Source: Microbacterium pseudoresistens (GTDB lineage: Bacteria; Actinomycetota; Actinomycetes; Actinomycetales; Microbacteriaceae). Taken from it: a stretch of 64,000 nt of DNA. Of this stretch, positions 13,347 through 51,326 are shown one piece after another. The translations under genes and the position numbers were made by a program. Under the pieces are notes generated by a model that saw only the letters and a list, made by a program, of their open reading frames with translations, did no database searches and was not told where the DNA came from. The stretch covers positions 1,426,001 through 1,490,000 of the forward strand of contig NZ_JACCBH010000001.1 in NCBI RefSeq assembly GCF_013409745.1, in the 5' to 3' direction. Numbering within the stretch: position 1 is the stretch's first letter; each line of letters starts with the position of its first letter.

Positions 13347-13370
13347 TCACTCCTGCGCCGGGTACGTCGC

Positions 13371-14108
13371 TCAGACCAGAAGGTAGAGCGATCCGATGAT
13401 CGTCATGATGATGACGAGCCGGTCGAAGAGCGCCTGCGGGATGCGCGACGCGATGCCCAGGCCGATGAGGGCGCCGATGACCACGGCGGGGGCGAGGGCG
13501 AGATCCATCCACAGCACCTCGGGAGTGAACAATCCGATCCCGGCGAGGAACGGGACTTTCACCAGGTTGACGATCGCGAAGAACCAGGCCGCGGTGCCGA
13601 GGAACGTCATCACCGGGGCCCTCGTGGCGAGGAAGTACATCGACATCGCGGGTCCGCCGGCGTTCGCGACCATGGTGGTGAACCCGCCGAGGGCGCCGTA
13701 CGAGCTCGCCGCGAGCACGCCTCCGGACGACGTGCCGGATGCCGGGCGACGACGGCGCCACAGGGTGATCCCGATCATCGTGAGCAGGATCACGGCGATC
13801 GCCCGCCGGGTGAGGGCGTCGTCGCTCCAGGCGAGGAACGCGAATCCGAGCAGCAGACCGATCACGACCGCGGGGGCCAGCCGCAGGAGGGTGCGCCAGT
13901 CGGCATGTCGCCGGTAGGCGGTGAGGGCGAACACGTCGCCGACGATGAGGAGCAGGAGCATCGCCGCCGTCGACGTGCGCGCCGGCAGGATCGCCGCGAA
14001 GGCGGCGATGGCGAGCGTGTTGCCGCCGGGCACCGCCGTCTTCGAGATGCCGATGGTCATGGCGGCCAGTGCGAGCACGACCCACGCCCAGGGCGCGAAG
14101 TCAGGCAT
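13371..14108 (-). CDS. TSUP-family (TauE/SafE) membrane permease
   Basis: 245-residue integral membrane protein with about seven to eight hydrophobic segments, two-repeat TSUP architecture (sulfite/organosulfonate exporter TauE/SafE family). The N-terminal [14 protein letters not shown] and the second-half [20 protein letters not shown] are the paired family motifs (the latter being the G-x3-hydrophobic-N-A-G-G-P signature). Members move sulfur-containing or other small anions; the substrate here cannot be told. It converges with the HSDL2-like gene and is divergent from rlmN. Confidence 0.88.
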
Positions 14109-14214: not shown

Positions 14215-15513
14215 ATGACCGAGAAGCCCGCATCCGTCCGCGCGACGCGCATCACTGCGCTCCGCGACACGCAGGTGCGCCCGGCCACAGCGCCCGCGGC
14301 CTCCGCCGCACCTCAGGTGCGGCCGACGACAGAGGGGTGGACGCAGCAGAAGGACGACGAGGGGCGTCCGCTGCTGCAGTTCGCCAGTCCCAAGCGCGGC
14401 AAGCCGCCGGTGCACCTGGCCGACCTCACGCCCGATGAGCGGGTGGAGAAGGTCAAGGAGCTGGGGCTGCCCGGTTTCCGCGCGAAGCAGCTCGCGACGC
14501 ACTACTTCACGCACTACACGTCCGATCCCGCGGAGATGACAGACCTCCCCGCCGCGCAGCGCGAGGAGTTCGTGGCCGGGATGCTCCCGCCGCTGCTCAC
14601 CGAGGTGCGGCGCCTGGAGACCGACCGCGGCGACACGATCAAGTTCCTCTGGCGCCTGCACGACGGTGCGCTCGTCGAGTCGGTGCTCATGCGCTACCCG
14701 GGTCGGATCACGCTGTGCGTGTCTTCGCAGGCCGGATGCGGCATGAACTGCCCGTTCTGCGCCACCGGTCAGGCGGGGCTCACCCGCAACATGTCGACGG
14801 CCGAGATCATCGAGCAGATCGTGCGCGCCAACCGGCTCATCGCCGATGGAGGCCTGGGAGGCAAGAAGGCCGACGATCACAGCATGGAGCGTGTGTCCAA
14901 CATCGTCTTCATGGGGATGGGCGAGCCGCTGGCCAACTACAAGCGGGTCATGGATGCCGTGCGCGTCATGGTCGCCCCGCAGCCGCAGGGGCTCGGCATG
15001 AGCGCGCGCGGCATCACGGTGTCGACGGTGGGTCTTGTGCCCGCCATCCGCAAGCTCGCCGACGAGGACATCCCGGTCACCTTCGCCCTGTCACTGCACG
15101 CGCCCGACGACGAGCTGCGCGACGAGCTCATCCCCGTCAACTCGCGCTGGAAGGTCGATGAGGCCCTCGACGCCGCTCGCGGCTACTTCGAGAAGACGGG
15201 GCGGCGCGTGTCGATCGAATACGCGCTCATCAAGGACATGAACGATCACGCCTGGCGCGCCGACCTGCTGGCCGACAAGCTCAACGCCCGCGGCCGCGGT
15301 TGGGTGCATGTGAACCCCATCCCGCTGAACCCCACGCCCGGGTCGATCTGGACGGCGTCGGAGAAGCCCGTGCAGGACGAGTTCGTGCGCCGGCTCAACG
15401 ACGCGGGCATCCCCACGACCCTCCGCGACACCCGCGGCAAGGAGATCGACGGGGCCTGCGGCCAGCTCGTCGCGACGACGGAGGATGAGGCCGCCGCCGC
15501 GGCGATGGCCTGA
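14215..15513 (+). CDS. rlmN: 23S rRNA (adenine2503-C2)-methyltransferase RlmN
   Basis: Radical-SAM methyltransferase that methylates C2 of A2503 in 23S rRNA (and A37 in some tRNAs). 432 residues with an actinobacterial N-terminal extension of about 50 residues. The iron-sulfur motif is CGMNCPFC (Cys175, Cys179, Cys182). The resolving Cys is Cys415 in DGACGQL. The SAM-binding [10 protein letters not shown] and the later [15 protein letters not shown] match the family. The start is ATG 14215, after GGAGG. Its last 17 codons plus stop are repeated at 26185-26244, at the far end of the catabolic island that follows. Confidence 0.96.
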
Positions 15514-15519
15514 CCCGCC
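15460..15519 (+). repeat. Left direct repeat (native end of rlmN)
   Basis: Codes for the last 17 residues of RlmN ([17 protein letters not shown]), then TGA and CCCGCC. Matches 26185-26244 at 57 of 60 positions. Left boundary of the island. Confidence 0.85.
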
Positions 15520-15619: not shown

Positions 15620-15634
15620 GAGATACCGTATCTC
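15620..15634. promoter_or_regulatory. Perfect inverted repeat upstream of tctA, operator candidate
   Basis: GAGATAC-C-GTATCTC, a perfect 7-bp dyad with a 1-base centre, 41 bases before the tctA start in an AT-rich patch (15581-15660). Position and symmetry suit an operator for the GntR/FCD regulator encoded at 25470. It would lie inside the coding region if the upstream in-frame ATG at 15618 were used, another reason to prefer the start at 15675. Confidence 0.5.
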
Positions 15635-15674: not shown

Positions 15675-17174
15675 ATGGATATCTTCGGCAATCTGCTTTC
15701 GGGCTTCGAGACGCTTCTCACCCCGTTCACTCTGCTCATGTGCGTGGTCGGCGGTCTCCTCGGCACACTGATCGGCGTGCTTCCCGGCCTGGGAGCGACG
15801 GCCGCCTTGGCCATTCTCTTGCCGCTCACAACCCAGATGAGCGTGATCGACTCGATCGTCTTACTGTGCGGTGTCTTCATGGGCTCGTTCTACGGGTCCT
15901 CGACGACCTCCATTCTTCTGAACACACCAGGACAGCCGGCTTCCGTCCCCGTAACCAGGGACGGCTACGCACTGGCGAAGATCGGCAAGGCTGGCACTGC
16001 GCTCGTGGTCTGCGGCGTCGCCTCTTTCGTCGGTGGGACCTTCTCGATAATCGTCCTGACCTTCTTCGCTCCCGCGCTGGCCCAGGTAGCGATTCATGTG
16101 GGTCCGCCTGAATACTTCGCCGTCCTCGTTGCCGCGCTGATGCTCGTGTTGAGCCTCGCCGGAAAGAGTCTGATCAAGGGGCTGATCACGGCGCTGCTGG
16201 GCTTCGTGATCTACCTCGTTGGGCTGGATCCGGTTTCGGGCCTCCCGCGGCTGACCTTCGGGGTCGACTCGCTTCTCGGCGGCATCGACTTCATCCCCGT
16301 TTTGATCGGTCTTTACGCGATCTCAGAGATCCTGATCAACTTCACGGACAACCGCGGAGGAGTGCTGTATCAAAAGGTGGGGAAGCTCTACCCGACATGG
16401 AAAGAAATTCGACGGATCTTCCTGCCCGCCAGCCGGGGCGCTGTGATCGGCACGGGCATCGGCGTGGTCCCCGGGGGTAGCGCCGCGGCCGCCGCCTTCG
16501 TCGGCTACGAGGTCGAGCAGCGGATGGCCAAAGACAAGAGCATGTTCGGGAAGGGCGAACTCCGGGGGATCGCCTCGTCGGAATCGGCGAACAACGCCGC
16601 GACCGGCGGCGCCATGGTCCCGCTCTTCACACTGGGAATCCCCGCGGATCCTGCGATCGCCGTGCTACTCGGCGCACTCATCATCCAGGGCGCGACTCCA
16701 GGGCCGACCTTCTTCACAGAGCACAGCGTGCTCGCTTGGACGATCATCGCCAGCCTCTTCGTGACCAACGTCATCCTGTTGATCCTCAACGTCCCTCTGG
16801 TCGGGATGTGGGCATCCATCATCAAGGTGCCCTATCCGATCCTCGCCGGCATCGTCCTCACTGTCTGCACGATCGGCTCCTACGCCGTCCGCAACTCGAT
16901 GGTCGACGTGATCGCGATGCTCATCTTCGGCGTCCTCGGCTATGCGATGCGGAAGATGGACTTTCCTTTGGAGCCGCTCGTACTGACGCTGATCCTGGCG
17001 CCGATCATCAACCCCGCGTTCATCCAGAGCCTGGCGATGTCGAACGGGAACCCGGCCATATTCGTGACCCGGCCGTTCGCACTCCTCTTCTTCGTCATCG
17101 CGGCCGCGCTGTTGTTCTTCAGCCTGCGTAGCCGTAAGCGCAAAGAACTCGTCTCCGTGCTCGAAGAATACTGA
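15675..17174 (+). CDS. tctA: Tripartite tricarboxylate transporter large membrane subunit TctA
   Basis: Large permease of a TTT importer, 499 residues with about 12 membrane segments, normal for TctA. The family glycine-rich signature is at the N-terminus (GTLIGVLPGLGATAALAILL) and repeated in the second half (GTGIGVVPGGSAAAAAFVGY). Works with TctB and the binding protein TctC to import a carboxylate using an ion gradient. I choose ATG 15675 (MDIFGNLL) because family members start there; ATG 15618 in frame would add 19 unlikely residues across the palindrome. No clear ribosome-binding site precedes 15675. First gene of the island; tctC follows after 43 bases. Confidence 0.93.
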   Translation: MDIFGNLLSGFETLLTPFTLLMCVVGGLLGTLIGVLPGLGATAALAILLPLTTQMSVIDSIVLLCGVFMGSFYGSSTTSILLNTPGQPASVPVTRDGYALAKIGKAGTALVVCGVASFVGGTFSIIVLTFFAPALAQVAIHVGPPEYFAVLVAALMLVLSLAGKSLIKGLITALLGFVIYLVGLDPVSGLPRLTFGVDSLLGGIDFIPVLIGLYAISEILINFTDNRGGVLYQKVGKLYPTWKEIRRIFLPASRGAVIGTGIGVVPGGSAAAAAFVGYEVEQRMAKDKSMFGKGELRGIASSESANNAATGGAMVPLFTLGIPADPAIAVLLGALIIQGATPGPTFFTEHSVLAWTIIASLFVTNVILLILNVPLVGMWASIIKVPYPILAGIVLTVCTIGSYAVRNSMVDVIAMLIFGVLGYAMRKMDFPLEPLVLTLILAPIINPAFIQSLAMSNGNPAIFVTRPFALLFFVIAAALLFFSLRSRKRKELVSVLEEY

Positions 17175-17217
17175 CTCGTCCCACGCAACATCTCATCATC
17201 TGCAAAGGAGCAAGAAA

Positions 17218-18216
17218 ATGAAGAAGAAGCGCATCATCACCGCACTGGCGGTCGCGACCGTCGCGGCGATCGGTCTCGCCGGCTGCAGCGGGAACGGCGG
17301 CTCTGCCGCCGAGGAGGACTATCCCACCTCGTCGATCGACATCACTGTCCCCTTCGCGCCCGGAGGTGCGACAGACACCTTCGCTCGCATGATCGCCGAG
17401 TACGCCGAGAGCGAGGGACACCAGGCGACCGTTCTCAACAAGGAGGGCGCGGGCGGCATCGTCGGGACTCAGGCCGTGCTCAACTCCAAGCCAGACGGCT
17501 ACTCGATCGCGGCGACGGCAGCGTCGAGCTCTCTTCTGAACTTCACCATCGGGACCGACGTCCCCTACGACCCGGAGGACTTCACGTACATCTCCCGGGT
17601 TCTTCTGACCCCTCTGGCTCTCGTGGTGCCCGGGGACTCCCCCTATCAGAACGTGCGCGAACTGCTGGATGCGGTGAAGAAGAACCCGGGGAACTTCAGT
17701 TTCGGGACTTCTGCGGCGGGGGGACCCTCTACCTTCGGACTCGGCGAACTCCTTATCTCGGAGGGGATCGATCCGTCCGAGCTCAAGATGGTCATCTTCA
17801 ACGGTGGTGCGCCGACTGTGACCGCGGTTGCCGGCGCCCAGGTGGACTTCGCCGCTCAGCTCGCCCCAGAGGTCATGCAGCTGACCAAAGATGGCACAAT
17901 CCGCGCCCTCGCGATCAGCTCCGACCGGCCGATCGCGGGGCTTGACGCGCCGACGAACGAAGAAGCAGGAGTGCCCGCCTTCTCGCACCAGTCGGTGTCC
18001 GGACTCGCGGGACCCGCTGATCTCCCGCCCAACGTCGTGGAGTTCTGGCAGGACCTCATCCAGAAGGCGCTCGACGACCCCGAGTTCCAGAAGAAGGTCG
18101 AGGAGCAGCTAGGAGCTCAGCCCGCGTACCTGTCAGGTGCTGACTATCTCGAATGGAACCTCGACCAGATCAAGACATACACGGAACTGGCCGCTCAACT
18201 CAACATCACCGAGTAA
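17218..18216 (+). CDS. tctC: TTT solute-binding lipoprotein TctC (Bug family)
   Basis: Extracellular substrate receptor for the TctAB permease, 332 residues. Lipoprotein signal peptide with lipobox LAGC (Cys23), then a mature domain typical of Bug proteins: ITVPFAPGGATDTFARM near the start and NKEGAGGIVGTQAVLNSKPDGY. Bug receptors bind carboxylates such as citrate, and also amides such as nicotinamide or amino-acid amides. The amidases downstream make an amidated acid a plausible ligand; that is inference. AAGGAG lies upstream of ATG 17218. Followed after 17 bases by the metallolyase gene. Confidence 0.92.
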   Translation: MKKKRIITALAVATVAAIGLAGCSGNGGSAAEEDYPTSSIDITVPFAPGGATDTFARMIAEYAESEGHQATVLNKEGAGGIVGTQAVLNSKPDGYSIAATAASSSLLNFTIGTDVPYDPEDFTYISRVLLTPLALVVPGDSPYQNVRELLDAVKKNPGNFSFGTSAAGGPSTFGLGELLISEGIDPSELKMVIFNGGAPTVTAVAGAQVDFAAQLAPEVMQLTKDGTIRALAISSDRPIAGLDAPTNEEAGVPAFSHQSVSGLAGPADLPPNVVEFWQDLIQKALDDPEFQKKVEEQLGAQPAYLSGADYLEWNLDQIKTYTELAAQLNITE

Positions 18217-18233
18217 ACAAGGAGAACAAGACG

Positions 18234-19526
18234 ATGCAGGTCTACGAACGCCCCGACCACCCCTGGATCAAGGACAAGAGTTACTACGTCGCACCTCTGA
18301 ACTATGACGAGAAGGTCTCGGCGCAGAGGACGGCGGCGGAGGGCGCGGACATCTCGCCCCAGCTGTACGACTCGACCATTCGGAAGATCCTGCTCACGCC
18401 GGGACTCCGCCCGACCATCCACGGCATGGTGCGCATCGCCGAACTGCTGGAGGGTATTGGGGTGAAGCATTTCACCTCGAACATCCACTGGTGGAAGGAC
18501 CCGCAACCGGAAGCGCTTGAATGGGCTGTCGCCGAGGCGATCCTCAAGGCGAACTTCTCGTTCGACACGTCGATCACTCTTGACACCGCCTGGTCGGACG
18601 ACTGGCGACGGGGTGCGGAGGATCTGGCTGAGCTTGGTATGGTGCGCCCGGTATTCCTGTTCCAGCCGATGCGCGAAGATCGTGGGAAGCGCTCGCCGGA
18701 GAAGACCTATGATCGCGTGCGCGAGATCATGGGCGGGATCAAGGACATGGGTCTGCGTCCTGGCTTGATGATCACTGATGTGGGGCGCGCCTCCTGGGAG
18801 GACCTGGTGGGCCTCAGTCGTGCCGGAATCGAGGCGGGAGCGGATCTGCTCAACGTGACAGATTCGGGAAGCAGCCTCAGCCATCACGGGATGCGAGTGC
18901 TCCTGAACTCCCTAAGGAAAGAGCTGGACACCGACGTCGAGTTCCTCGTGCACACGCACGATGACTTCGGTCTCGGAACACCGGTCGCCATCGAGACCGT
19001 GCTGCAGGGCGACTCCATCGAACTGAGCTTCAACGGCATCTCCGACCGAGCGGGCTTCCCCTCGTTCGAAGAGACGATCGTGTGCCTCGAGTCGATGTAC
19101 GGACTGCCTAGCGGCTACGACATGAAACTCGTCTCGCAGATCTGTGAACTCGTTAAGCAGGAGTCGATCGCTCCCCATCCGTGGAAGGCGCTGAGCGGGG
19201 ATCACGCGTTCATGCTGGACCTCCCGTACTCGGCCGCTCCGGCGTTGGAGAAGGGGCGTGGATCCTTCCCGCCGGTCTGGAACTGCGTCGACCCCAGTTG
19301 GCTCGGCTACGCGCCGCAGATGAACTGGCTGCGACAGTTCATGTACGGACCGGTTGTCGAGTCGAAGCTCCGCTCCCTCGGGCTCCCGACCGACAAGGCG
19401 TCCGCCGACGAGTTCCGCGCCGTGCTGTCGCGGGAGTTCGCCTCCATGAAGGAATATCCGATCTGGGTGGAAGAAGAAGCGTTCGACGAGCTTGCGCAGC
19501 TCACCCTCGGAGAACGCGGAAAATAG
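18234..19526 (+). CDS. DRE-TIM metallolyase-family enzyme (HMG-CoA lyase / isopropylmalate synthase-like)
   Basis: 430-residue TIM-barrel enzyme of the HMG-CoA-lyase-like family, which makes or breaks C-C bonds next to a carboxylate using a divalent metal. The metal and catalytic residues appear as Asp46 and Arg50 (LYDSTIRK, replacing the usual D-x-x-x-R near the N-terminus) and the HxH pair His240/His242 in VHTHDDFGLGTP. It has an unusual N-terminal 40 residues and no recognisable acyl-CoA or regulatory domain. It lies between tctC and tctB, so it acts on the imported compound. The exact reaction (retro-aldol, retro-Claisen or condensation) cannot be told. ATG 18234 follows AAGGAG. Confidence 0.75.
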   Translation: MQVYERPDHPWIKDKSYYVAPLNYDEKVSAQRTAAEGADISPQLYDSTIRKILLTPGLRPTIHGMVRIAELLEGIGVKHFTSNIHWWKDPQPEALEWAVAEAILKANFSFDTSITLDTAWSDDWRRGAEDLAELGMVRPVFLFQPMREDRGKRSPEKTYDRVREIMGGIKDMGLRPGLMITDVGRASWEDLVGLSRAGIEAGADLLNVTDSGSSLSHHGMRVLLNSLRKELDTDVEFLVHTHDDFGLGTPVAIETVLQGDSIELSFNGISDRAGFPSFEETIVCLESMYGLPSGYDMKLVSQICELVKQESIAPHPWKALSGDHAFMLDLPYSAAPALEKGRGSFPPVWNCVDPSWLGYAPQMNWLRQFMYGPVVESKLRSLGLPTDKASADEFRAVLSREFASMKEYPIWVEEEAFDELAQLTLGERGK

Positions 19527-19577
19527 ACCGTTCTCGCAGGGGGTGTCTGCCCCCTGCGAGAAGGACGGAGTTGACCA

Positions 19578-20033
19578 ATGACATCTCTTCACTCGATTCG
19601 CTCGGCCACCATTGCGGCTGCGATCACCGCGGCCGTCGGCGTCCTCTGCATCGTTGGTGGCCTTCAGTTGCCGTTCCACTACGCGGGTTCGATCGGGCCA
19701 GCCTGGCTCCCGCTCGTTATCGGCATCCTGCTGATCGTCTGCGCGATCGCGTACTGGATCGGCGCGGTCCGCGCCGACGAGGCCATCACCTGGACGGACC
19801 GCTCTGGCTGGCTGACCATCGGCGGAATATACGTCGCGTTCATCGCCTTCCTTGTCGTGGCGAACTTGACCTTCTTCGCTCTCGGCGCCTTCGTATTCAT
19901 CGTCCTCTTCCTCACGGCCGTCAACTCCTATTCCATCGTCAAGCGCTTCGTCATCGCCCTGCTGTCGGCGGGCGCGATCCACGTCGTGTTCGTGATGTTG
20001 CTCGAGCTTCCCCTTCCAGGAGCACGGTGGTGA
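19578..20033 (+). CDS. tctB: TTT small membrane subunit TctB
   Basis: 151-residue membrane protein with four hydrophobic segments, the normal size and topology of TctB. Conserved features include the early membrane helix followed by SIGPAWLPLVIGILLI and the second-half segment FLVVANLTFFALGAFVFIVL. It pairs with TctA. Unusually it is separated from tctA by tctC and the metallolyase gene. It ends in a 4-base overlap (GTGA) with the amidase gene, showing that transport and hydrolysis are translationally coupled. Confidence 0.88.
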   Translation: MTSLHSIRSATIAAAITAAVGVLCIVGGLQLPFHYAGSIGPAWLPLVIGILLIVCAIAYWIGAVRADEAITWTDRSGWLTIGGIYVAFIAFLVVANLTFFALGAFVFIVLFLTAVNSYSIVKRFVIALLSAGAIHVVFVMLLELPLPGARW

Positions 20034-21364
20034 AGAACGTTTCCGCCTCCGTCCGCGGACTGCGCGACGAGCTCTCACGAGGAAGGACCACTGCTCGACA
20101 ACTCGTCGAACGGTATGCGGCACGCATCGTCGACGAGAACTCCCGATGGCACTGCTATCGGGAGACGAACTTCGACGAGGCGCGGCGTGTGGCGGCGACG
20201 TTCGATCGGGATGCTTCGTCGTTCCCGCACGTACTGAGCGGCATCCCGGTGGGGATCAAGGACGTCTTTCCTCTTTCCACTGTTCCCGCACGGTCCGGTA
20301 GCGCGGTCGTCCCCCGACGGGACGCGGCGGAATCAGGCCTCTCGCGGCATCTGCGGTCGATGTCGACGCCGGTTCTCGGCCTGCAGACCTGCCACGAGTT
20401 CGCCTACGGCCCGCTCGGCGATGTCAGCCACCCCATGCCGGCGGTGAACCCTCGCGACCCCGGGCTCGTACCGGGCGGATCCAGCAGTGGATCAGCGGTG
20501 GCGGTCGCCACGGGGCTCGCGCCCCTGTCCTTCGGGACGGACACCGGAGGATCTATCCGGACGCCCGCGGCCGTCAACGCCCTGGTGGGATTCATGCCCG
20601 CGGAGAACAGCGTGGACATGAGCATGATGAGTCACCTCTCTCCTTCTTTGGACCGTGTGGGTCCGATCGCGGCCGATGTGGAGAGCGCCTATCTCGGCTG
20701 GCTTTCGCTCACCGGGGGATCGGCCTCGTTGGAGGACCTTCCAGAAATTGAACCCGTCGGGCAGCGCATCGGCGTGCTCTCCGGACCGTCTTTCGACGAC
20801 CTCGATGCGACCGTCTCCGCCGGATATGAGGCGTTCCTCTCCCGCCTGGGCAGGAGACGGGCTCCTGGCACCGCGAGGCTCGACGCCACGCCGGGAATCG
20901 ACGCGCAGGGGACGATCGTCGGTGCGGAGGCCTGGCGTCTCTATGCCGATCTCGCGACGGACGAGAACTCCCGCATGGGCAAGGAGGTCGCGGGCAGGAT
21001 CCGTCGGGGGGGAGAGATCAGCGCGGAGGAGTATGCGCACGCGCAGCAGCGCGGGCGAGAATTCGACGCGGCCCTGAAGCAGCTCCTCGATGAGTTCGAT
21101 CTGCTGATCTGCCCGACGACGCCGATCGCCATCCCTCGCGTCGGACAGCGCGAGTTTCTGCGCGCTGATGGGACCGCGGAGTCGATCTATCGCGCGGTGA
21201 CGCGCCACACCTCTCCGTTCAATGTCTCCTCGGCCTCGGCGCTCACCGTGCCCTATGACACCACCTCCGCGAATCCTTTCAGCGTCCAGATCGTCACGAA
21301 GATCGGCGCGGAAACACTCGCGTTCGGCCTGGCGGCCACCATCGAAAGGAAGTATCAGAAATGA
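20030..21364 (+). CDS. Amidase-signature-family amidohydrolase
   Basis: 444-residue cytoplasmic amidase that cleaves a carboxamide to acid plus ammonia (or amine). The Ser-cisSer-Lys triad is visible: Lys77 (GIPVGIKDVF), cis-Ser151 (PGGSSSGSA) and nucleophile Ser175 (DTGGSIRTPA). The start is GTG 20030, 7 bases after AGGAG and overlapping the tctB stop. GatA is excluded as a role because there is no gatB/gatC context and the sequence is diverged. It overlaps the following aldolase by 4 bases (ATGA). It presumably attacks the imported compound or an intermediate. Confidence 0.88.
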   Translation: MKNVSASVRGLRDELSRGRTTARQLVERYAARIVDENSRWHCYRETNFDEARRVAATFDRDASSFPHVLSGIPVGIKDVFPLSTVPARSGSAVVPRRDAAESGLSRHLRSMSTPVLGLQTCHEFAYGPLGDVSHPMPAVNPRDPGLVPGGSSSGSAVAVATGLAPLSFGTDTGGSIRTPAAVNALVGFMPAENSVDMSMMSHLSPSLDRVGPIAADVESAYLGWLSLTGGSASLEDLPEIEPVGQRIGVLSGPSFDDLDATVSAGYEAFLSRLGRRRAPGTARLDATPGIDAQGTIVGAEAWRLYADLATDENSRMGKEVAGRIRRGGEISAEEYAHAQQRGREFDAALKQLLDEFDLLICPTTPIAIPRVGQREFLRADGTAESIYRAVTRHTSPFNVSSASALTVPYDTTSANPFSVQIVTKIGAETLAFGLAATIERKYQK

Positions 21365-22107
21365 CTTCGGAGTCCTCCGTGCTCGCCGGGGTATGGAACA
21401 ACTTCCCTCTCGCCGGCCTCGGCTCCGTGGCCCATGCCGCGGGTTATCGACTCGCAGTCCTCGACTACGAGCACGGCGTCTTCACCACCGAGTCCGCGTT
21501 CGCACAAGTCCAGCAATTGAAGGCGGAGGGCGTCACGGTGTTCGTCAAGCCGGGCACGAACACCCGCTGGTTCGTTCAGCAGGCGCTCGATCACGGTGCC
21601 GACGGTGTGATCATCCCCCACGTCGAGGGCGCTGTGCACGCAGCTGAGATCGCGGGATACACCAAGTTCGCCCCGGATGGCACTCGGAGCGCCGCCTCCG
21701 GCACGCAGACGCGCTTCCGTGCCGTCGGACACCGATGGATGGAGGAAGAGAACGCCCGTGTCCTCTGTATCCCCATGATCGAGCGGGCAACCGCGCTGGA
21801 GCAGATCGAAGACATCGTCGCCGAAGAGAATGTCGATGGCATCTTTATCGGATCGGCGGACCTCTCGCTGTCTCGTGGCCGAGGTGCGTACGCCCGCACC
21901 GCAGAAGACTTCGCAGACTTCGCCCGTATCGCGGCGGTCTGCGTCGCTGCGGGCAAGCCCTGGGGTATCGGCGGCTGGGTGTCGGAGGAGCGAGAGTTCG
22001 CCCGGGCCCACGGCGCCACGTGGATCGTGACGTGCATGGACTTCACTGCTCTCGAACAGGGCATGCGGCTCGCAATCGCGGACGTCCCAGAGGCGGTGGT
22101 GTCGTGA
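21361..22107 (+). CDS. HpcH/HpaI aldolase (class II pyruvate-type aldolase family)
   Basis: 248-residue TIM-barrel metal aldolase. The catalytic His is in LDYEHG (about residue 39). Metal ligands are the Glu in PMIE (about 141) and the Asp in GSADLS (about 167). An Arg/Lys-rich loop follows PHVEGA. Family members reversibly cleave 4-hydroxy-2-oxo acids to pyruvate and an aldehyde, or act on malyl-type substrates. It shares ATGA overlap with the amidase and GTGA overlap with the next hydrolase. A product such as pyruvate or an aldehyde could feed the decarboxylase or the dehydrogenase of the same operon; that link is inference. Confidence 0.87.
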   Translation: MTSESSVLAGVWNNFPLAGLGSVAHAAGYRLAVLDYEHGVFTTESAFAQVQQLKAEGVTVFVKPGTNTRWFVQQALDHGADGVIIPHVEGAVHAAEIAGYTKFAPDGTRSAASGTQTRFRAVGHRWMEEENARVLCIPMIERATALEQIEDIVAEENVDGIFIGSADLSLSRGRGAYARTAEDFADFARIAAVCVAAGKPWGIGGWVSEEREFARAHGATWIVTCMDFTALEQGMRLAIADVPEAVVS

Positions 22108-22916
22108 TCAGGCTCGGAACCGCCCAGATCGCCGCGGGGTCCTCGAAGAAGGAGAACCTCGAGCGGATCAGCCGGATCGTCGCTGAAGCCCGGGCTGCGG
22201 GAGTCGAGCTTCTCGTCCTCCCGGAGTACAGCTCCTACTGGGATGGCGAGGAGTTCGGGCGAGGATTCACGGAGAACGCGGAGCCCGTGTCTGACGGCGA
22301 GTTCGTGACCACTCTTCGCGGGCTGGCGAGCGATGCCGGCATGTGGATCGTCGCTGGCATGCTCGAGACTGCACCGGACGAGAAGAAGCGGGTTTTCAAC
22401 ACCGTTGTCGGCGTCTCTCCCTCCGGAGTCGTAGAGGTTACCTACCGCAAGATCCACCTCTACGACGCCTACGGGGGGACGGAGTCAGTCTTCCTCCTCC
22501 ACGGCGACCCGGATCAGCGCCCCAGATTCCGCGCCGGCGGGCTCACCTTCGCGGTGTCGACCTGTTACGACGTCAGGTTTCCTGAGATCATGCGCCGGGG
22601 CGGAGAGGACCCGGCGGATGCGATCCTGCTGCCGGCCGTGTGGACACCCGGTCCCCTCAAGAGCATGCACTGGGAGACGCTCACCCGCGCACGGGCGATC
22701 GAGAACATCGCCTATCTCGCTGCGGTGACGGCTCCATTCCCGGAGTCGATCGGGCAGAGTCGCGTCCTTGGCCCCGACGGCACCGTGCTCTGCGAAGCGG
22801 GCGCCCGGGAGCAGCTGCTGACGGTCGATCTCAACCACGCGGCGGTCAGCGCGGAGCGCGATCGCAACACGAGCCTGACCAACAGGCGTTATCGAGTGAT
22901 CGGAGACAAGAAATGA
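22104..22916 (+). CDS. Nitrilase-superfamily amidohydrolase (omega-amidase-like)
   Basis: 270-residue carbon-nitrogen hydrolase with the Glu-Lys-Cys triad: Glu41 (LVLPEYSSY), Lys116 (YRKIHLYD) and Cys154 (STCYDVRFPE). Length and the YRKIHLYD/TCYDVRFPE motifs resemble Nit2/omega-amidase and related carboxamide hydrolases rather than true nitrilases. Omega-amidases deamidate 2-oxoglutaramate or 2-oxosuccinamate, which would give this pathway a second, distinct deamidation step. The start is GTG 22104, overlapping the aldolase stop. It overlaps the TPP-enzyme alpha gene by 4 bases. Confidence 0.87.
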   Translation: MIRLGTAQIAAGSSKKENLERISRIVAEARAAGVELLVLPEYSSYWDGEEFGRGFTENAEPVSDGEFVTTLRGLASDAGMWIVAGMLETAPDEKKRVFNTVVGVSPSGVVEVTYRKIHLYDAYGGTESVFLLHGDPDQRPRFRAGGLTFAVSTCYDVRFPEIMRRGGEDPADAILLPAVWTPGPLKSMHWETLTRARAIENIAYLAAVTAPFPESIGQSRVLGPDGTVLCEAGAREQLLTVDLNHAAVSAERDRNTSLTNRRYRVIGDKK

Positions 22917-23443
22917 CCTATGCCTCGGCAGTGGCGGATGCTATTCGGGAATCGGACATCGACGTTGTCGGCTATGTGCCGTCGGTGACCATCGCACCAG
23001 TGATCAAGCACCTCATCAAGGCGAGGGAGCAATCCCTCTCTGCGCCGAACGTCATCCAACTGTCTCGTGAGGAAGAAGCCATGGGCGTGCTCGGGGCTCT
23101 TCCCTTCGCGGGCAAGCTTGGCGCGGTGATCATGCAGGACAACGGCTTCGGCAACGCGCTGACCGCGATGACGACATTCTTGCAGTCCTACCACCTCCCT
23201 CTGCTGATCTTCGCGAACACACGTGGCGGCCTCGGCGAGTACAACTCGATGATTCATAGCATCAGTCAGCCGATGCCCGGTGTGCTCCGCGCCTTCGGGT
23301 TCGCGGTGTTCGAGATCGACTTCTCGCTGGATGAGAAAAAATGGGGCCAGGTCGTCCGTGAGGCAGTCGTGCACGCGGTGATGACTTACCGGCCCGTGGT
23401 GGTGCTCGCCTCGTTCTGGGGCACGGACGGAAAGGTCGCATGA
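22913..23443 (+). CDS. TPP-dependent 2-oxoacid decarboxylase alpha subunit (ComD-like)
   Basis: 176-residue PYR-domain subunit resembling sulfopyruvate/phosphonopyruvate decarboxylase alpha (ComD). The cofactor-activating Glu lies in the QLSREEEAMGVLGAL segment (Glu53-55). The region VIMQDNGFGNALTAMTTF, followed by LPLLIFANTRGGLGEYN, is the ComD core. It needs the beta subunit, encoded next with a 4-base overlap, to bind TPP. Decarboxylation of a 2-oxo acid with an acidic or polar side group to an aldehyde is the expected reaction. Sulfopyruvate is not implied, since no sulfonate genes are nearby. Confidence 0.85.
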   Translation: MTYASAVADAIRESDIDVVGYVPSVTIAPVIKHLIKAREQSLSAPNVIQLSREEEAMGVLGALPFAGKLGAVIMQDNGFGNALTAMTTFLQSYHLPLLIFANTRGGLGEYNSMIHSISQPMPGVLRAFGFAVFEIDFSLDEKKWGQVVREAVVHAVMTYRPVVVLASFWGTDGKVA

Positions 23444-24033
23444 TGAGAAGGATCGATGCACTCGAGGTTCTCGCCCCCCGTCTGAGAAATAACCCAGTCG
23501 TGGTGACCTGTGCGGCAACGAGCCGAGAATTGGCCCACGTTCAGGACTCGGACAACCATCTGTACCTGCTCGATTCGATGGGACTGGTCGGCTCGGTGGC
23601 CGCAGGACTCGCACTCGCACTGGGCGACGGTGGTGAGAAGGTCATCGCCATTGAAGGGGACGGCTCACTGCTCATGAATCCCAACGTTCTCTTCACAGAC
23701 GCTGCGCTGAAGCCCGAGAATCTTGTGATCGTGCTGCTGGACAACGGCGTCTTTGGCTCGACCGGAAACCTCCCGACGTACGCCGGGAACATCGACCTCG
23801 GCGCCGCCGCGGAAGCGCTTGGCCATGAGGTGCGCCGCGCGCAGGATGCCGATACTCTTCTCGCCGGGCTCGAGGAGTTACTCTCCGTCGATGGCCCGAG
23901 CCTGCTCCACGTTCGCACGGAGGTCGGCAACGCTGAAGTGGACAAGCTCCTCGTAGACCCCGTCGACATCAAGACACGCTTCACCTCGTGGCTCACCGGA
24001 GCACGCATCGAGGGGGCAGATGATGTTCGTTGA
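23440..24033 (+). CDS. TPP-dependent 2-oxoacid decarboxylase beta subunit (ComE-like)
   Basis: 197-residue PP-domain subunit that binds the diphosphate of TPP. The TPP signature starts with GDGS (73-76) and ends with Asp101-Asn102, about 26 residues later, the canonical spacing. The sizes of alpha and beta match the split ComD/ComE enzyme. It starts at ATG 23440 on the alpha-subunit stop; a second in-frame ATG at 23443 is equally possible. It overlaps the aldehyde dehydrogenase gene by 14 bases. The product aldehyde is presumably taken by that dehydrogenase. Confidence 0.86.
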   Translation: MMRRIDALEVLAPRLRNNPVVVTCAATSRELAHVQDSDNHLYLLDSMGLVGSVAAGLALALGDGGEKVIAIEGDGSLLMNPNVLFTDAALKPENLVIVLLDNGVFGSTGNLPTYAGNIDLGAAAEALGHEVRRAQDADTLLAGLEELLSVDGPSLLHVRTEVGNAEVDKLLVDPVDIKTRFTSWLTGARIEGADDVR

Positions 24034-25432
24034 CGGAGTATGGCGCGCAGCATCCGAGCGTCAGTCGCACCCCGTGGTCAACCCTGCGAACGGAGATGTC
24101 ATCGACACCATCCCGTTATCGACACTTGACGACTGCTCAGCGGCGGTGGACGCTGCAGTCTCCGCGTTCGATGCGTGGTCGCAGACCGCGCCGCGTGACA
24201 GGTCGGATCTGCTCTATGAGGCGTGGCGGAGTCTGACCGCGCGCACTGAGGAACTGGCGGAACTGATCGTGGCAGAGAACGGGAAGACCATGGACGACGC
24301 GAGCGCAGAGGTCGTCTACGCCCTCGACTTCCTGCGCTGGTTCGCCGAAGAGGCGGTACGGATTCGGGGGGATTACAGGAGAGCACCACGTGGCGATAAG
24401 CGCATCATCGTCGATCGAGTACCGGTCGGACCGGCACTGCTGATTACTCCCTGGAACTACCCAGCGGCGATGATCACACGGAAGCTGGGACCCGCCCTCG
24501 CCGCGGGGTGCACGACGATTATCAAGCCTGCGTTGGAGACACCGCTGACTGCGCGTGAGATCGTGCGGACCTTTGATGAACTCGGGGCGCCGAAGGGCGT
24601 AATCAATCTGGTGACCCCGAGCAATGCGGGCCCTGCGGTGGACCGCATGCTCGAGACGGGTGAGATCCGCAAACTGTCCTTCACTGGATCCACAGTCGTG
24701 GGACGCATCCTGCTGCGCGCATCCGCCGAGCACGTCGTTAAGACGTCGATGGAACTCGGCGGAAATGCACCTTTCCTCGTCTTGGAGAGCGCGTCCATCG
24801 ACGAGGCCGTAGAGGGCGCGATCCAGGCGAAACTCCGCAATGGAGGCGCGGCCTGCACGGCGGCCAACCGACTCTACGTTCACCGTTCCCTTGTGAGTGA
24901 GTTCGCCGATCGCCTCTCCGCAAGGGTCTCCTCTTTTCGGGTAGGATCTGGTGACGACCGCACCAGCACGGTTGGAGCGCTCGTCTCGGCCGCTGAAGTC
25001 CACAAGATCCGGGACCTCATCGCTCGGGGCAAGGGGCAAGGAGCGCGCGTAGTGTTCGAGTCCGAGATTCCCGAGCAGGGGGCCTTCATGAACATCACCG
25101 TTCTGAAGGGAATCGAGTCGGACAATGTGCTTACGCAACAGGAGATCTTTGGACCCGTCTTCCCCATCGTCGAGTTCGACGATGAGGAAGAGGCTGTGCG
25201 GCTCGCCAACATGACCGAGTACGGGCTGGTGGCCTACGTCTTCGGCAGCGAGGTGGACGCCATGCGGGTCGGCCATCGGCTGAAGGTGGGGATGGTCGGA
25301 GTTAACCGCGGTGTCGTCAGCGATGCTGCAGCGCCCTTCGGCGGTGTGAAGGAGAGCGGCATCGGGAGAGAAGGATCGTTCGAAGGACTGGACGAGTATC
25401 TTCAGGTGAAGTATCTGGCTGTCAGCGGTTGA
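24020..25432 (+). CDS. NAD(P)-dependent aldehyde dehydrogenase (semialdehyde type)
   Basis: 470-residue ALDH-superfamily enzyme oxidising an aldehyde to the acid. Catalytic residues are visible: Asn146 (TPWNYP), Lys169 (IIKPA), general base Glu246 (ELGGNAPF) and nucleophile Cys279 (GGAACTAANR). The sequence is closest in style to succinate-semialdehyde dehydrogenases, fitting an acid-bearing aldehyde such as the ComDE product. The start is ATG 24020 or 24023, inside the end of the beta-subunit gene. Last enzyme of the coupled operon; 37 bases separate it from the regulator. Confidence 0.92.
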   Translation: MMFVDGVWRAASERQSHPVVNPANGDVIDTIPLSTLDDCSAAVDAAVSAFDAWSQTAPRDRSDLLYEAWRSLTARTEELAELIVAENGKTMDDASAEVVYALDFLRWFAEEAVRIRGDYRRAPRGDKRIIVDRVPVGPALLITPWNYPAAMITRKLGPALAAGCTTIIKPALETPLTAREIVRTFDELGAPKGVINLVTPSNAGPAVDRMLETGEIRKLSFTGSTVVGRILLRASAEHVVKTSMELGGNAPFLVLESASIDEAVEGAIQAKLRNGGAACTAANRLYVHRSLVSEFADRLSARVSSFRVGSGDDRTSTVGALVSAAEVHKIRDLIARGKGQGARVVFESEIPEQGAFMNITVLKGIESDNVLTQQEIFGPVFPIVEFDDEEEAVRLANMTEYGLVAYVFGSEVDAMRVGHRLKVGMVGVNRGVVSDAAAPFGGVKESGIGREGSFEGLDEYLQVKYLAVSG

Positions 25433-25469
25433 TGCCTTGTTAGTTTCAAGCTGAAAGTCAGGACCGGAG

Positions 25470-26138
25470 TTGCTCGAACCAATCGCTCATGACGCCCCTT
25501 CCCTCTCGGATACCGTCTTCGAGCGTATCCGTGAAGCGATCCTCACACGAAAGCTCTTGCCGGGTTCTCGGGTCGTCGAGTCGACGATCGCAAAGCAATT
25601 CAGCGTCAGCAAAACCCCTGTGAGAGAGGCGTTCCTCAAACTCGCACAGATCGGCCTCATCGAACAGGACGCCCGTGAGAGTAGGGTCGTCTCCGCATCC
25701 CGGAAGTCGATAGAGGACTCGTTCCGAGTGCGCATCGCGCTGGAGGAAGAGGTGATGAGCTCGCTCGCGCATCTGGAGGATGTCGAACTCGATTCGCTTC
25801 TGGACCTTTCGCAACTGTCGGACGAAGCACATCTGCGAGATGATTCGATCGGGCGTTACCATGACGCGCGGCTCTTCCACCTGAATCTTGCGCAGCTAAC
25901 GGGAAATCCCTTCCTTTCCACCGCGGTGGCCAACTTCTACGATCTGACTTGGATACTCCGCCATCGCGACAGCAGGCATTCCGAGCAGTCTGTGGGGAAT
26001 GCGGTGCAGCATAAGCAGATTGCGCATTCTCTTGCGACGGGTGATATCCATTTGGCGCGTACTCAGATGGTTGACCATCTGAATCAAGTTCTGCAGGCGG
26101 CGCTGGACGACATGATCGAGGACATTCCGCGCGGGTAA
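25470..26138 (+). CDS. GntR-family regulator, FCD subfamily
   Basis: 222-residue transcription factor: N-terminal winged helix-turn-helix (about 10-75, with AKQFSVSKTPVREAFLKLAQIGLIEQ) and a helical FCD ligand domain whose metal/ligand His-Asp pattern shows as RYHDARLFH. FCD regulators usually respond to a carboxylate from the pathway they control. I take TTG 25470 as the start, 6 bases after AGGA, because the first HTH helix begins about 12 residues later and no in-frame ATG or GTG lies near. It is the last gene of the island; candidate operators lie before tctA at 15599 and 15620. Confidence 0.85.
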   Translation: MLEPIAHDAPSLSDTVFERIREAILTRKLLPGSRVVESTIAKQFSVSKTPVREAFLKLAQIGLIEQDARESRVVSASRKSIEDSFRVRIALEEEVMSSLAHLEDVELDSLLDLSQLSDEAHLRDDSIGRYHDARLFHLNLAQLTGNPFLSTAVANFYDLTWILRHRDSRHSEQSVGNAVQHKQIAHSLATGDIHLARTQMVDHLNQVLQAALDDMIEDIPRG

Positions 26139-26184
26139 TGACGACCCATTGTTGGGCCGTCCGCTTATGGCGCACCGGCATCCC

Positions 26185-26244
26185 GGCCAGCTCGTCGCGA
26201 CGACGGAGGATGAGGCGGCCGCTGCCGCGATGGCCTGACCCGCC
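26185..26244 (+). repeat. Right direct repeat (rlmN 3'-end copy)
   Basis: Second copy of the rlmN end, 57/60 identical to 15460-15519. Read in the rlmN frame it still encodes the same 17 residues and TGA, all three changes being at third positions. It has no start or upstream rlmN sequence. It lies in the 191-base gap between the GntR gene and the DUF4407 gene; I see nothing else there besides the latter's likely promoter region. Confidence 0.85.
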
Positions 26245-26329: not shown

Positions 26330-27877
26330 ATGTCCTACTCCGCTCATCGCCCCGGGAGACTCGATTCCCAGGGGCAGATCTCCGTGGACGCCGCCGACCC
26401 CGACAGCGGCCTCGGCTTCGACGACTCCGAGCTCGACTTCCTCCGCGACTACACGCCGACCGGGTCCGAGCAGCCCGCCGGAGCGGATGACGCGACGCCC
26501 GAGACGACGCCGATCGCCCGTGCGGCGCAGCCCGTCGTGGCCGAACCGGCGGTGACCGAGCCGGCTGCGGAGGCCGAGCCGGCACCGCGCGCACCTCGGG
26601 AGCCGCGCGCCCGTGCATCTCGCGCCCCCCGCGAGCGCACGCCGGGGTCGATGCTGCGCCGACTCGCGATCCTCGGCGGCGCCGATGGGCACATCCTCGA
26701 CCGTGTCCCCACCGAGCAGCCGCGCTTCGTGCAGATGTTCTTCGTGCTCGCCGGCACCGCGCTCGTCTCGGCGCTGTCGATGCTGTTCGCCCTCACCACC
26801 GGCGTGCAGGTGCTCGTGTGGCTGGCCATCCCGATCTCGCTCGTCTGGGCGGCCCTCATCTTCAACCTCGACCGATTCCTCACCTCGACCATGTCGTCGA
26901 CGCGAAGCATCTGGCGACTCATCGGCCTCGCCATCCCGCGCGTGATCATGGCCGCGCTCATCGGCTTCGTCGTCGCCGAGCCCGTCGTGCTGCAGGTGTT
27001 CCACAACGACATCTCCCGCGAAGTGGCGGCGACCAACATCGTGCAGGCGCAGGACGACCAGGCCGCTCTCGACGAGGGTCCCGAGAAGCAGGCACTGGAT
27101 GCCGCATCCGCGCGCCTGCAGGAGCTGCAGACGCAGGCCACGACCGGCATCGTCGCCGGCGCGGAGGGCGACACCGCCTCGCAGACCGTCGCGCAGAGCA
27201 CCGTCGACAAGATCACCGCGCAGCTTGCCGAGCAACAGGCGGTGATAGACCAGGCGCGCCAGCTGTACCAGTGCGAGCTGACCGGCGAGGGCATCGGCAC
27301 CGTTCCCGGCTGCACCGGTGTGGAGGGCGAGGGTGCGAGCTCGGACGCCGCCCACGCTCAGCTCACCGCGGCCCAGGCCACCTACGACGACCTCGCTGGC
27401 CAGCTGCGCGACGCGAACGAGAAGCTCGCGGGGGCCGAGGCGTCGGCGCAGAGTGCGACTTCCGCATCCGAGGGGCAGAACAGGCAGCAGGCGAAGGATC
27501 AGCTGCCCGCGGCGCGCGACTCGTACGATGCGGCACTTGCGGCGTACAACGCGCGGGCCGCATCCGTCGCCGACGGCAACGCCGGGGCGATCGGGCTGCT
27601 CAGCCAGATCCAGGGACTCAACCGGCTGGCCGAGAAGGACGCGACGATCTTCTGGGCGCACTGGCTCATCGCCGCACTGTTCTTCATGATCGAGCTGCTG
27701 CCGGTGCTCGTGAAGGTGCTCACCAGCTACGGCGATCCGTCGCTGTACGAGAAGGCCGCGGCCGTGCGCAAGCAGGTCGACCTCGACCGGGTGAACGCCG
27801 ACGGCTTCCGCGATCGAGCGACGATCGTGACCGCCGAGTCCCGTGCGCGGGAGGGATCCGAGGCCGTTCCGGTCTGA
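26330..27877 (+). CDS. DUF4407 membrane protein
   Basis: 515-residue DUF4407 protein of unknown function. Layout: an acidic, Pro/Ala-rich disordered N-terminus (1-105), three hydrophobic segments (about 128-225, with FFVLAGTALVSALSMLFAL and a FNLDRFLTS motif between them), a long charged/Ala-Gln-rich region with coiled-coil character (about 235-420), a fourth membrane segment (about 440-465) and a cytoplasmic tail. This hairpin-like arrangement is typical of the family. ATG 26330 gives the usual family length. It is the first native gene after the island; an intergenic dyad repeat follows its stop. Confidence 0.85.
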   Translation: MSYSAHRPGRLDSQGQISVDAADPDSGLGFDDSELDFLRDYTPTGSEQPAGADDATPETTPIARAAQPVVAEPAVTEPAAEAEPAPRAPREPRARASRAPRERTPGSMLRRLAILGGADGHILDRVPTEQPRFVQMFFVLAGTALVSALSMLFALTTGVQVLVWLAIPISLVWAALIFNLDRFLTSTMSSTRSIWRLIGLAIPRVIMAALIGFVVAEPVVLQVFHNDISREVAATNIVQAQDDQAALDEGPEKQALDAASARLQELQTQATTGIVAGAEGDTASQTVAQSTVDKITAQLAEQQAVIDQARQLYQCELTGEGIGTVPGCTGVEGEGASSDAAHAQLTAAQATYDDLAGQLRDANEKLAGAEASAQSATSASEGQNRQQAKDQLPAARDSYDAALAAYNARAASVADGNAGAIGLLSQIQGLNRLAEKDATIFWAHWLIAALFFMIELLPVLVKVLTSYGDPSLYEKAAAVRKQVDLDRVNADGFRDRATIVTAESRAREGSEAVPV

Positions 27878-27980
27878 GGTCGGTCGCCTACCCCATCCCG
27901 AGTGCGCGGCTTATCGCCGAGTGCGCGGCTTGTTCCCGCAAATACCCCGTGCGCTCGGCAAGTTCCCGTGCGTTCGCGGG
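27878..27980. repeat. Dyad-rich intergenic repeat, copy A
   Basis: Begins right after the DUF4407 stop and matches, imperfectly, the segment after the next gene's stop (28498-28596). It contains two direct GAGTGCGCGGCTT units and oppositely oriented CCGTGCGCTCGG and CCGTGCGTTCGCGGG units that can pair with them, so it can fold as hairpins. It may serve as a terminator or be a member of a dispersed REP-like family. Confidence 0.7.
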
Positions 27981-28002: not shown

Positions 28003-28497
28003 ATGGAGCGGATGCGGGCGACCTGGTGGATCGCGATCGCCGGGGTGCTGGCGGTGGCCGCCTACGCGGCTTTCGCGGCGCTGCAGATCCTCGTGCTCAA
28101 TCCCCTCGCCGCCACCCCGGGCAAGAGCCTCGAGCAGATCCGCTCCGAGGCGTCGGCGGTCGGCGAGCCGCTGGGAGGCGCCGGCGTGCTCGTCTTCCTC
28201 GGCGTCGGGGTGCTGCTGGCGGTGATCCTCGCCGTGGTCGTGATCCGCTCCCGTATCCGCCCTGTCGTCACCGCGCTGCTCTTCCTCGGCCTGCTCGCGT
28301 TCGGAACGCCGGCGTACTTCGCCGCATCCTTCGGCCCGGGCATGTCGCTCGCGGATGCGTTCGGCATCTCCGGGGCCGACTACTCGCCGTGGTCGCTCCT
28401 GCTCTACGGCATCAGTGCACTGGCCGTGGTCATGGCAGTCGTGCTCGCCGTCGTGCTCGTGCTCGCCCCGCGCGATCGCGTGACCTGTTCCCGCTGA
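28003..28497 (+). CDS. Small membrane protein, unknown function
   Basis: 164-residue protein with four predicted membrane segments (about 8-30, 62-85, 90-110 and 130-155). No recognised family. Starts at ATG 28003 (MERMRATWW) with a GGGG-type ribosome-binding site; ATG 28012 is an alternative. The first extracytoplasmic loop (NPLAATPGKSLEQIRSEASA) is the only sizeable polar region. It is flanked on both sides by copies of the same dyad-rich intergenic repeat, so it looks like a self-contained unit. Confidence 0.7.
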   Translation: MERMRATWWIAIAGVLAVAAYAAFAALQILVLNPLAATPGKSLEQIRSEASAVGEPLGGAGVLVFLGVGVLLAVILAVVVIRSRIRPVVTALLFLGLLAFGTPAYFAASFGPGMSLADAFGISGADYSPWSLLLYGISALAVVMAVVLAVVLVLAPRDRVTCSR

Positions 28498-28596
28498 GGT
28501 CGCCCGCCCATCCCGAGTGCGCGGCTTATCGCCGAGCGCACGGCTTGTTCCCGCGAATACCCCGTGCACTCGGAAGGATCCCGTGCACTCGCGGGG
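28498..28596. repeat. Dyad-rich intergenic repeat, copy B
   Basis: Second copy of the repeat seen at 27878-27980, again starting directly after a stop codon and ending at the stop of the convergent ACT-domain gene. It shares the CCCATCCCGAGTGCGCGGC block and the GCGCTC/GCACTC inverted units. Both copies fill nearly the whole intergenic space. Confidence 0.7.
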
Positions 28597-49861: not shown

Positions 49862-50362
49862 ATGAACAGCACTGCGCACCGCGCCGGGCGCAGGTATGGC
49901 GACGGCATCCCTGACCTGCGGGTCGTCGAGAACCTCCCGGATGACGACGACCTGACGCTGTCCGAAGCCGACCGCCGCGAACTCGTGGCCTGGACGGTGG
50001 CGTGCGCGCAGCGTCTGCTGCCCTTGTTCGTCGCCCAGCGCCCCGATGATCGCCGGCCGCAGGAGGCGCTGGATGCGGCCTGGTCGTTCCTGCGCGGCGA
50101 GATGGGAATCGACGCCGTGCGCGAGCGCGCCTTCGCCTGCCATGCGGCCGCCCGCGAGGTCGATGATCCTGCTGCCGAAGCCGCCGCGCGCGTCTGCGGT
50201 CAGGCCGTCGCGGTGGCCCACATGGCCGGGCACAGCCGCCAGGTTCCGCGGCACACCGCCCGCGCGTTCCCCGGCAATCACGCGCGCCGCGACGAGGAGC
50301 TCGCCTGGCAGCGCAAGAGCATCCCGGCGCGCTTCGAGCAGTACGTGTACGACGGCGACTGA
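49862..50362 (+). CDS. Imm-5-like putative immunity protein
   Basis: 166-residue helical protein. The middle and C-terminal parts (RRPQEALDAAWSFLRGE, CHAAAREVDDPAAEAAARV and CGQAVAVAHMAGHSRQVPRH) match the actinobacterial Imm-5-like domain, annotated as a putative immunity protein from its occurrence in toxin loci. No toxin gene is next to it here, so it is an orphan or has another role. ATG 49862. The 120 bases before it hold no visible feature. Confidence 0.65.
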   Translation: MNSTAHRAGRRYGDGIPDLRVVENLPDDDDLTLSEADRRELVAWTVACAQRLLPLFVAQRPDDRRPQEALDAAWSFLRGEMGIDAVRERAFACHAAAREVDDPAAEAAARVCGQAVAVAHMAGHSRQVPRHTARAFPGNHARRDEELAWQRKSIPARFEQYVYDGD

Positions 50363-50393
50363 TATGTGACTGGTTTTGTCGAGGGGACAGGAA

Positions 50394-51316: not shown

Positions 51317-51326
51317 GAGAGAGGGC

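Follow-up and report, generated by a model that had tools for sequence, protein, structure and literature searches.

What would a bacterium take up and degrade with a tripartite tricarboxylate transporter (TTT) importer, two amidohydrolases, two putative C-C lyases, a split thiamine diphosphate (ThDP) enzyme and an aldehyde dehydrogenase? These proteins are encoded by eleven genes at positions 15675-26138 of a 64,000-nucleotide stretch of the Microbacterium pseudoresistens genome (contig NZ_JACCBH010000001.1; the whole stretch is called the window). All are on the + strand, in the order tctA, tctC, DRE-TIM-like lyase, tctB, amidase, HpcH, nitrilase, ComD-like, ComE-like, aldehyde dehydrogenase and GntR/FCD regulator. 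We think it fairly probable that this operon encodes a catabolic pathway for a carboxamide-bearing hydroxy or oxo acid and is carried on an acquired island, because the genes from tctB to the aldehyde dehydrogenase overlap, a related locus exists in another genome, HpcH and nitrilase are also paired on plasmids, the genes form an insertion at rlmN with low GC content both overall and at third codon positions (GC3), and the dehydrogenase is nearest to succinate semialdehyde dehydrogenases (SSADH).

From these features we infer the following reactions, their order and the type of substrate. The TTT importer TctABC would import a small hydroxy or oxo (poly)carboxylic acid that carries a carboxamide, and the amide bonds of this acid would be hydrolysed by the amidase-signature enzyme and the Nit2-like nitrilase with release of ammonia. 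A variant DRE-TIM lyase and a Lys-type HpcH aldolase would carry out two C-C cleavages. In this strain the resulting 2-oxo acid would be decarboxylated by ComDE, and the semialdehyde so formed would be oxidised into central metabolism by the SSADH-like dehydrogenase. The GntR/FCD protein probably represses the operon.

An initial annotation of this DNA had described one coupled operon for an 'amidated polycarboxylate', a substrate that is a guess. All of the genes it named were found, co-directional and assigned to their families by Pfam, and its claim that every junction overlaps from tctB to the aldehyde dehydrogenase holds, with overlaps of 4, 4, 4, 4, 4 and 14 nt that place each start codon inside the preceding gene. 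Short gaps separate the earlier genes (tctA-tctC, 43 nt; tctC-lyase, 17 nt; lyase-tctB, 51 nt). The insertion described below, with the rlmN 3' end repeated at its borders, had been missed. No described pathway with this gene set was recognised in the open-access literature, as judged by titles and the beginnings of abstracts, although such an absence is weak evidence. Pathways for nicotinate/pyridine, barbiturate, cyanurate, pantothenate and citrate-siderophore amides were considered and set aside; the eleven genes include no oxygenase and no other gene that is a hallmark of them.

The variant lyase and a second locus

The lyase (18234-19526; Pfam HMGL-like, 56 bits) was predicted to keep the TIM-barrel fold of the DRE-TIM superfamily, in a structural model of moderate confidence in which residues 1-40 and 316-373 have a predicted local distance difference test score (pLDDT) below 50. 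In an alignment of 13 sequences, R50 at the position of the catalytic Arg, the metal-binding HxH (H240 and H242), N267 and many barrel residues are invariant. The fold, the Arg and the HxH thus agree with the earlier description of a DRE-TIM metallolyase, but the D and E of the motif are gone. In the place of the acidic metal ligand that follows the Arg, the window's protein has K51, and its closest relative also has Lys.

In this superfamily roles have been described for the catalytic Arg, the metal Asp (Asp90 in methylthioalkylmalate synthase, MAMS), a Gln on the coenzyme A (CoA) side and a catalytic His (PMC11532901). Compared with the Claisen-type enzymes (homocitrate, isopropylmalate and methylthioalkylmalate synthases), the lyase has Lys for the metal Asp, where 6ktq has Glu, and Leu (L54) at the position of the CoA-side Gln93. 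Furthermore, the HESGIH segment, which we take to contain the catalytic His, is replaced by LDLPYS. These active-site residues set the lyase apart from ordinary DRE-TIM metallolyases and speak against an ordinary isopropylmalate synthase. Five other places in the same genome match HMGL-like.

Close relatives of the lyase are rare. At E ≤ 1e-40 there was no match in 97 related genomes and at E ≤ 1e-30 none in 395 other genomes of the phylum (the two sets share some genomes); a plasmid collection gave no match, and four stretches of viral contigs matched the search pattern, none of which was confirmed. One genome from each of 84,980 species was scanned for proteins that contain an exact copy of any of six peptides; 229 were obtained and the 80 best retained, and more distant relatives may exist beyond such a scan. 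Among these 80 the sole close relative, with 69% identity, was at locus L004, on a contig of an Actinomycetes metagenome-assembled genome, the 79 others being 23-33% identical. A tally over the 80 loci gave 79 RDGEQ motifs and one RKILL motif; at least one RDGEQ motif is present in 78 of the 79 more distant matches, with L052 giving none.

The gene order in L004 is tctA (cut at the contig end)-tctC-lyase-tctB-amidase-SDR-nitrilase-HpcH, where SDR is a short-chain dehydrogenase that has no counterpart in the window. The nitrilase and HpcH genes, which follow the SDR gene, are in the reverse of their order in the window. Identities between the two loci are 64% for TctA, 51% for TctC, 30% for TctB, 36% for the amidase, 42% for the nitrilase and 40-42% for HpcH. 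ComD, ComE, the aldehyde dehydrogenase and GntR had no match in L004 at E ≤ 1e-3, on a contig that starts inside tctA; a pathway there would have the short-chain dehydrogenase, with ComDE and the aldehyde dehydrogenase not seen. Thus the core common to the two loci appears to be importer, lyase, amidase, nitrilase and HpcH, and includes both the two amidohydrolases and the two C-C lyases of the initial annotation. A search for the same order in other genomes had been suggested there; as tctA-tctC-lyase-tctB-amidase recurs in L004, where the SDR gene travels with it, the grouping of these genes is more than chance. Further downstream in L004 (10050-13220) is a second TctA homologue, 39% identical to that of the window, beside 2-hydroxyacid dehydrogenase-like and GntR-like genes (named by eye from their translations).

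The gap between lyase and tctB contains a strong RNA hairpin in both loci, of different sequence in each. In the window it is at 19531-19562 on the + strand (z -4.55, none of 200 shuffles as stable) and in L004 at 3455-3510 (z -2.77, 2 of 200 shuffles as stable). Through these hairpins the two halves of the operon may come to differ in mRNA level. Upstream of tctA, 7-nt arms around 1 nt form a palindrome (15620-15634), a candidate operator, although the mismatch search made for it is no test of its significance. A scan for sigma-70 promoters gave one weak match, no more than in shuffled sequences.

All three subunits of the importer score above their Pfam cut-offs: the large membrane subunit TctA (15675-17174; 482 bits, with an alternative start possible at an earlier in-frame ATG at 15618), the substrate-binding TctC (17218-18216; 128 bits) and the small membrane subunit TctB (19578-20033; 51 bits). 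A second TctC match is present in the same genome outside the window (C1:1206419-1207198). The cut-offs of HMGL-like, Amidase, HpcH_HpaI, CN_hydrolase, TPP_enzyme_C and Aldedh were also exceeded by the respective proteins, and the regulator (25470-26138) matches GntR and FCD. The amidase-signature amidohydrolase (20030-21364) scored 194 bits with Pfam Amidase (scanned from 20054), and its best NCBIfam model gave 229 of the 447 bits needed. Indeed, none of the ten operon proteins scanned reached an NCBIfam cut-off among the models listed (for the amidase the best 25 of 26 families and for the aldehyde dehydrogenase the best 25 of 43), and the functions are therefore assigned at family level only.

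Lys-type HpcH aldolases and their neighbours

HpcH (21361-22107; Pfam HpcH_HpaI, 74 bits) belongs to the class II aldolases, and alignments of 23 and 35 sequences place it in a subfamily with an altered active site. The metal Glu and Asp are kept, in IER and ADLS motifs that align with YfaU, and presumably serve as ligands. At the position of the catalytic Arg, mapped to Arg70 of HpaI through the YfaU alignment, there is Lys. Both Arg70 and His45 are described as important in Escherichia coli HpaI (PMC8560999). HpcH of the operon thus shares the family, the EH motif and the metal motifs with the pyruvate aldolases HpaI, GarL and YfaU, but differs from them in this Lys and in an Arg-rich (RGRG-like) loop, and it scores 92 bits against a cut-off of 369.

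Lys is found in nine of the 23 aligned sequences and, after additions, in 16 of 35 (the window, L004, L098-L103, L105, L132 and L134-L139). The 19 with Arg comprise 12 Actinomycetota matches, both copies in L104, L133 and L140-L143. A loop containing Arg (RGRG or a variant) follows the metal Asp motif in all Lys-type sequences and in the Arg-type L104 and L133 sequences, and is missing from the other 16. Among 396 Actinomycetota genomes, 13 others have an HpcH match at E ≤ 1e-20; neither the Lys nor the Arg-rich loop occurs in the 12 that were aligned (L088 was left out), and no nitrilase matched in the 13 loci, each of just 2.3-3.7 kb.

The nitrilase-superfamily amidase next to HpcH (22104-22916; Pfam CN_hydrolase, 135 bits) is Nit1/Nit2-like, with 'nitrilase homolog 2' as best PDB match, and retains CYDVRFPE. 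This pairing is also found on plasmids. Relatives of HpcH were detected by tblastn in 158 plasmid records, and 16 loci were hand-picked from the 30 listed, eight with 12 kb flanks and eight with 5 kb; some of the queries came from these loci themselves. A nitrilase is present in ten of the 16 (L098-L101, L105, L132 and L136-L139), and an RraA gene is near HpcH in nine (L098, L101-L103 and L135-L139), a number that rises to 11 with the divergent operons that adjoin it in L100 and L105. Three loci (L102, L103 and L135) have a full-length ThDP decarboxylase, and L104, L133 and L134 have none of these three genes. A compact set, in Microvirga sp. VF16 (L138), consists of an ABC importer, HpcH, nitrilase, RraA and LysR, of which the RraA is similar to 4-carboxy-4-hydroxy-2-oxoadipate aldolase, with 118 bits against a cut-off of 179. 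In other bacteria, therefore, a Lys-type HpcH and a nitrilase are repeatedly accompanied by a second C-C lyase. By analogy, the variant lyase of the window may stand where the RraA aldolase stands elsewhere. The alphaproteobacterial operons resemble that of the window in having a Lys-type HpcH and a nitrilase side by side, a second C-C lyase and an importer, but they use RraA and an ABC importer whereas the window has the DRE-TIM-like lyase and a TTT importer.

The occurrence of nitrilase follows the type of HpcH: ten of 14 Lys-type loci, neither of two Arg-type loci with the loop and none of four canonical Arg-type loci. The last are control loci of lower identity with 5 kb flanks (H27-H30), all Arg-type without the loop and two of them Bosea loci near-identical in layout, in which neither nitrilase nor RraA was matched at E ≤ 1e-5. 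This control agrees with a catabolic pathway but is too small to raise confidence. As to the concern that orthologues might act in unrelated pathways, HpcH relatives do occur in varied operons; yet the proximity of nitrilase in ten of 14 Lys-type loci favours the catabolic reading.

Some of the plasmid loci have further genes of note. In L098, L100 and L105 a divergent operon beside HpcH-nitrilase encodes an ABC importer, a creatininase family protein, RraA and an N-formylglutamate amidohydrolase, and in L098 and L105 also a serine hydrolase or beta-lactamase family protein. In L100 (Agrobacterium 1D1460) the nitrilase beside HpcH (12767-13417) is unannotated and its reading frame is apparently interrupted.

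Insertion at the rlmN 3' end

The operon forms an insertion of approximately 10.7 kb at the 3' end of rlmN. A 61-nt direct repeat flanks it on the + strand: the left copy (15459-15519) consists of the last rlmN codons plus 6 nt and is 95% identical to the right copy (26184-26244), a displaced rlmN 3' end; the 17 C-terminal residues encoded by the two copies are identical, their codons differing synonymously. These two copies are the sole matches in the genome to the end of rlmN with E < 1e-6, the next best having E 1e-5. The sequence downstream of the right copy matches the region upstream of a DUF4407 gene in sister genomes. Eight sister stretches were fetched around this gene, and in seven the site is empty, rlmN being 0.1-1.4 kb away with no match to an operon gene; the eighth (L122) contains no rlmN. 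Among the RlmN matches listed from the plasmid collection (8 of 246 records), the three best, with 62-67% identity, all come from Actinomycetota. Repeat and empty sites together suggest an element that inserted itself at the end of rlmN and supplied it with a new 3' end.

The base composition of the operon differs from that of its surroundings. In 2-kb windows GC is 0.61-0.66 from 16 to 26 kb, compared with 0.67-0.72 from 2 to 16 kb and 0.68-0.72 from 26 to 50 kb, and GC3 is 0.68-0.84 in the genes of the operon, compared with 0.92 for rlmN and 0.90 for the DUF4407 gene on either side. Horizontal acquisition as a catabolic island is the best explanation of these features. No integrase was found among the eleven genes scanned between the repeats, and five tyrosine recombinase matches are located elsewhere in the genome. 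Islands that lack an integrase and are flanked by attachment (att) sites ('cis-mobilisable elements') likewise leave the host gene intact, have the end of that gene as a direct repeat on either side, and have relatives with an empty site. None of the matches listed from open-access full texts mentions rlmN.

Three other features were noted. A direct repeat of about 115 nt (84% identity; 27866-27980 and 28487-28595) is located at and beyond the end of the DUF4407 gene. The window contains a second stretch of low GC (50001-60000, 0.62-0.66). On contigs C1 and C5 of genome G001 the rlmN 3' end is matched three times and DUF4407 several times, perhaps as a result of duplication or assembly.

Competing explanations and what the operon may mean

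The final steps of the proposed pathway depend on three genes of the window that are not seen in L004. The ThDP enzyme is split into a ComD-like N-terminal half (22913-23443), which scored 25.6 bits with TPP_enzyme_N, slightly below the Pfam cut-off of 26.8, and a ComE-like C-terminal half (23440-24033; TPP_enzyme_C, 57 bits). It has the split architecture of sulfopyruvate decarboxylase ComDE, but both halves fall below the equivalog cut-offs (TIGR03845, 81 bits against 148, precisely 147.95; TIGR03846, 150.5 against 221.5). At E ≤ 1e-90 the aldehyde dehydrogenase (24020-25432; Aldedh, 481 bits) has eight PDB matches, of which seven bear the name SSADH and one the name aldehyde dehydrogenase; its score is below the curated SSADH cut-off (TIGR01780, 498.8 of 646.35 bits). 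Against 3jz4 it keeps the ITRK, ANR and VVS positions (two Arg and one Ser), presumably carboxylate-binding, and these residues support a dicarboxylic semialdehyde as its substrate. Residues and PDB matches are therefore in line with the semialdehyde oxidation first proposed, but this dehydrogenase, like ComDE, is not seen in L004.

A quite different fate of the substrate would follow if ComDE were a true sulfopyruvate or phosphonopyruvate decarboxylase and the importer carried a sulfonate or phosphonate. The best NCBIfam model of both halves is indeed sulfopyruvate decarboxylase, and of 20 plasmid records matching the ComE-like half, most carry the annotation comE or phosphonopyruvate decarboxylase. 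However, besides the low scores and ComDE not being seen in L004, no Xsc or phosphonatase model was matched over its cut-off in this genome, although the 14 control genomes gave no such match either and so supplied no positive example, and the amidases and both lyases would remain unexplained. Family cut-offs and own-genome searches thus give this fate no support, and we regard it as very improbable. The lyase itself might have ceased to cleave C-C bonds, as an inactive barrel or one repurposed, for example, as a hydrolase or dehydratase. Replacement of the metal Asp by Lys and loss of the CoA-handling residues would fit this, but the Arg, both His, the Asn and many barrel residues are invariant and the two Lys-bearing copies are 69% identical, which points to selection for function and leaves a lost activity unlikely. 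It is also rather unlikely that only the importer and the variant lyase (tctA-tctC-lyase) form a specific unit, with the other enzymes loosely assembled and no single linear pathway. In favour of such an assembly, tctA and the lyase are 64-69% identical to their L004 counterparts but the amidase, nitrilase and HpcH 36-42%, and a hairpin separates the two halves in both loci. Against it, enzymes of matching functional class come next in L004 as in the window, tctB is split off at the same place in the two loci, Lys-type HpcH is found together with a nitrilase in other bacteria too, and the junctions of the window operon overlap.

A single catabolic pathway for a carboxamide-bearing acid has to be set against several observations that weaken it. 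ComDE and the aldehyde dehydrogenase, not seen in L004, look accessory. The amidase, nitrilase and HpcH are much less conserved between the two loci than the lyase and TctA, and HpcH of L004 shares 53-55% identity with the HpcH proteins of L098-L101 as against 40% with that of the window; these three enzymes may therefore have been recruited separately in the two loci. The lyase is held by two loci, a thin base for defining a core gene set. In the plasmid operons no amidase-signature protein was matched at E ≤ 1e-15, and the plasmid sample is biased, consists partly of near-duplicates and comes from loci that use other importers.

A bolder version of the catabolic pathway is possible, although we put it forward tentatively. 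The pathway would be new and built on a new DRE-TIM subgroup, marked by Lys for the metal Asp, in which the lyase performs a CoA-free C-C cleavage that is the task of an RraA-type aldolase elsewhere, with a re-tooled HpcH as partner. The lyase would then work either without that metal, the Lys acting as Schiff base or in acid-base catalysis, or with a carbamylated Lys as ligand.

The case for testing these proposals is that an enzyme from a much-studied superfamily has lost one of the metal ligands that define it. The comparison also exposed a module of Lys-type HpcH and nitrilase, in part with RraA, on alphaproteobacterial plasmids; no assigned substrate for this module was found in the open-access literature. 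In M. pseudoresistens a whole putative pathway is present as a compact unit at the end of a housekeeping gene, with no visible integrase. If its substrate were identified, at least two enzyme subfamilies would gain an assigned function together.

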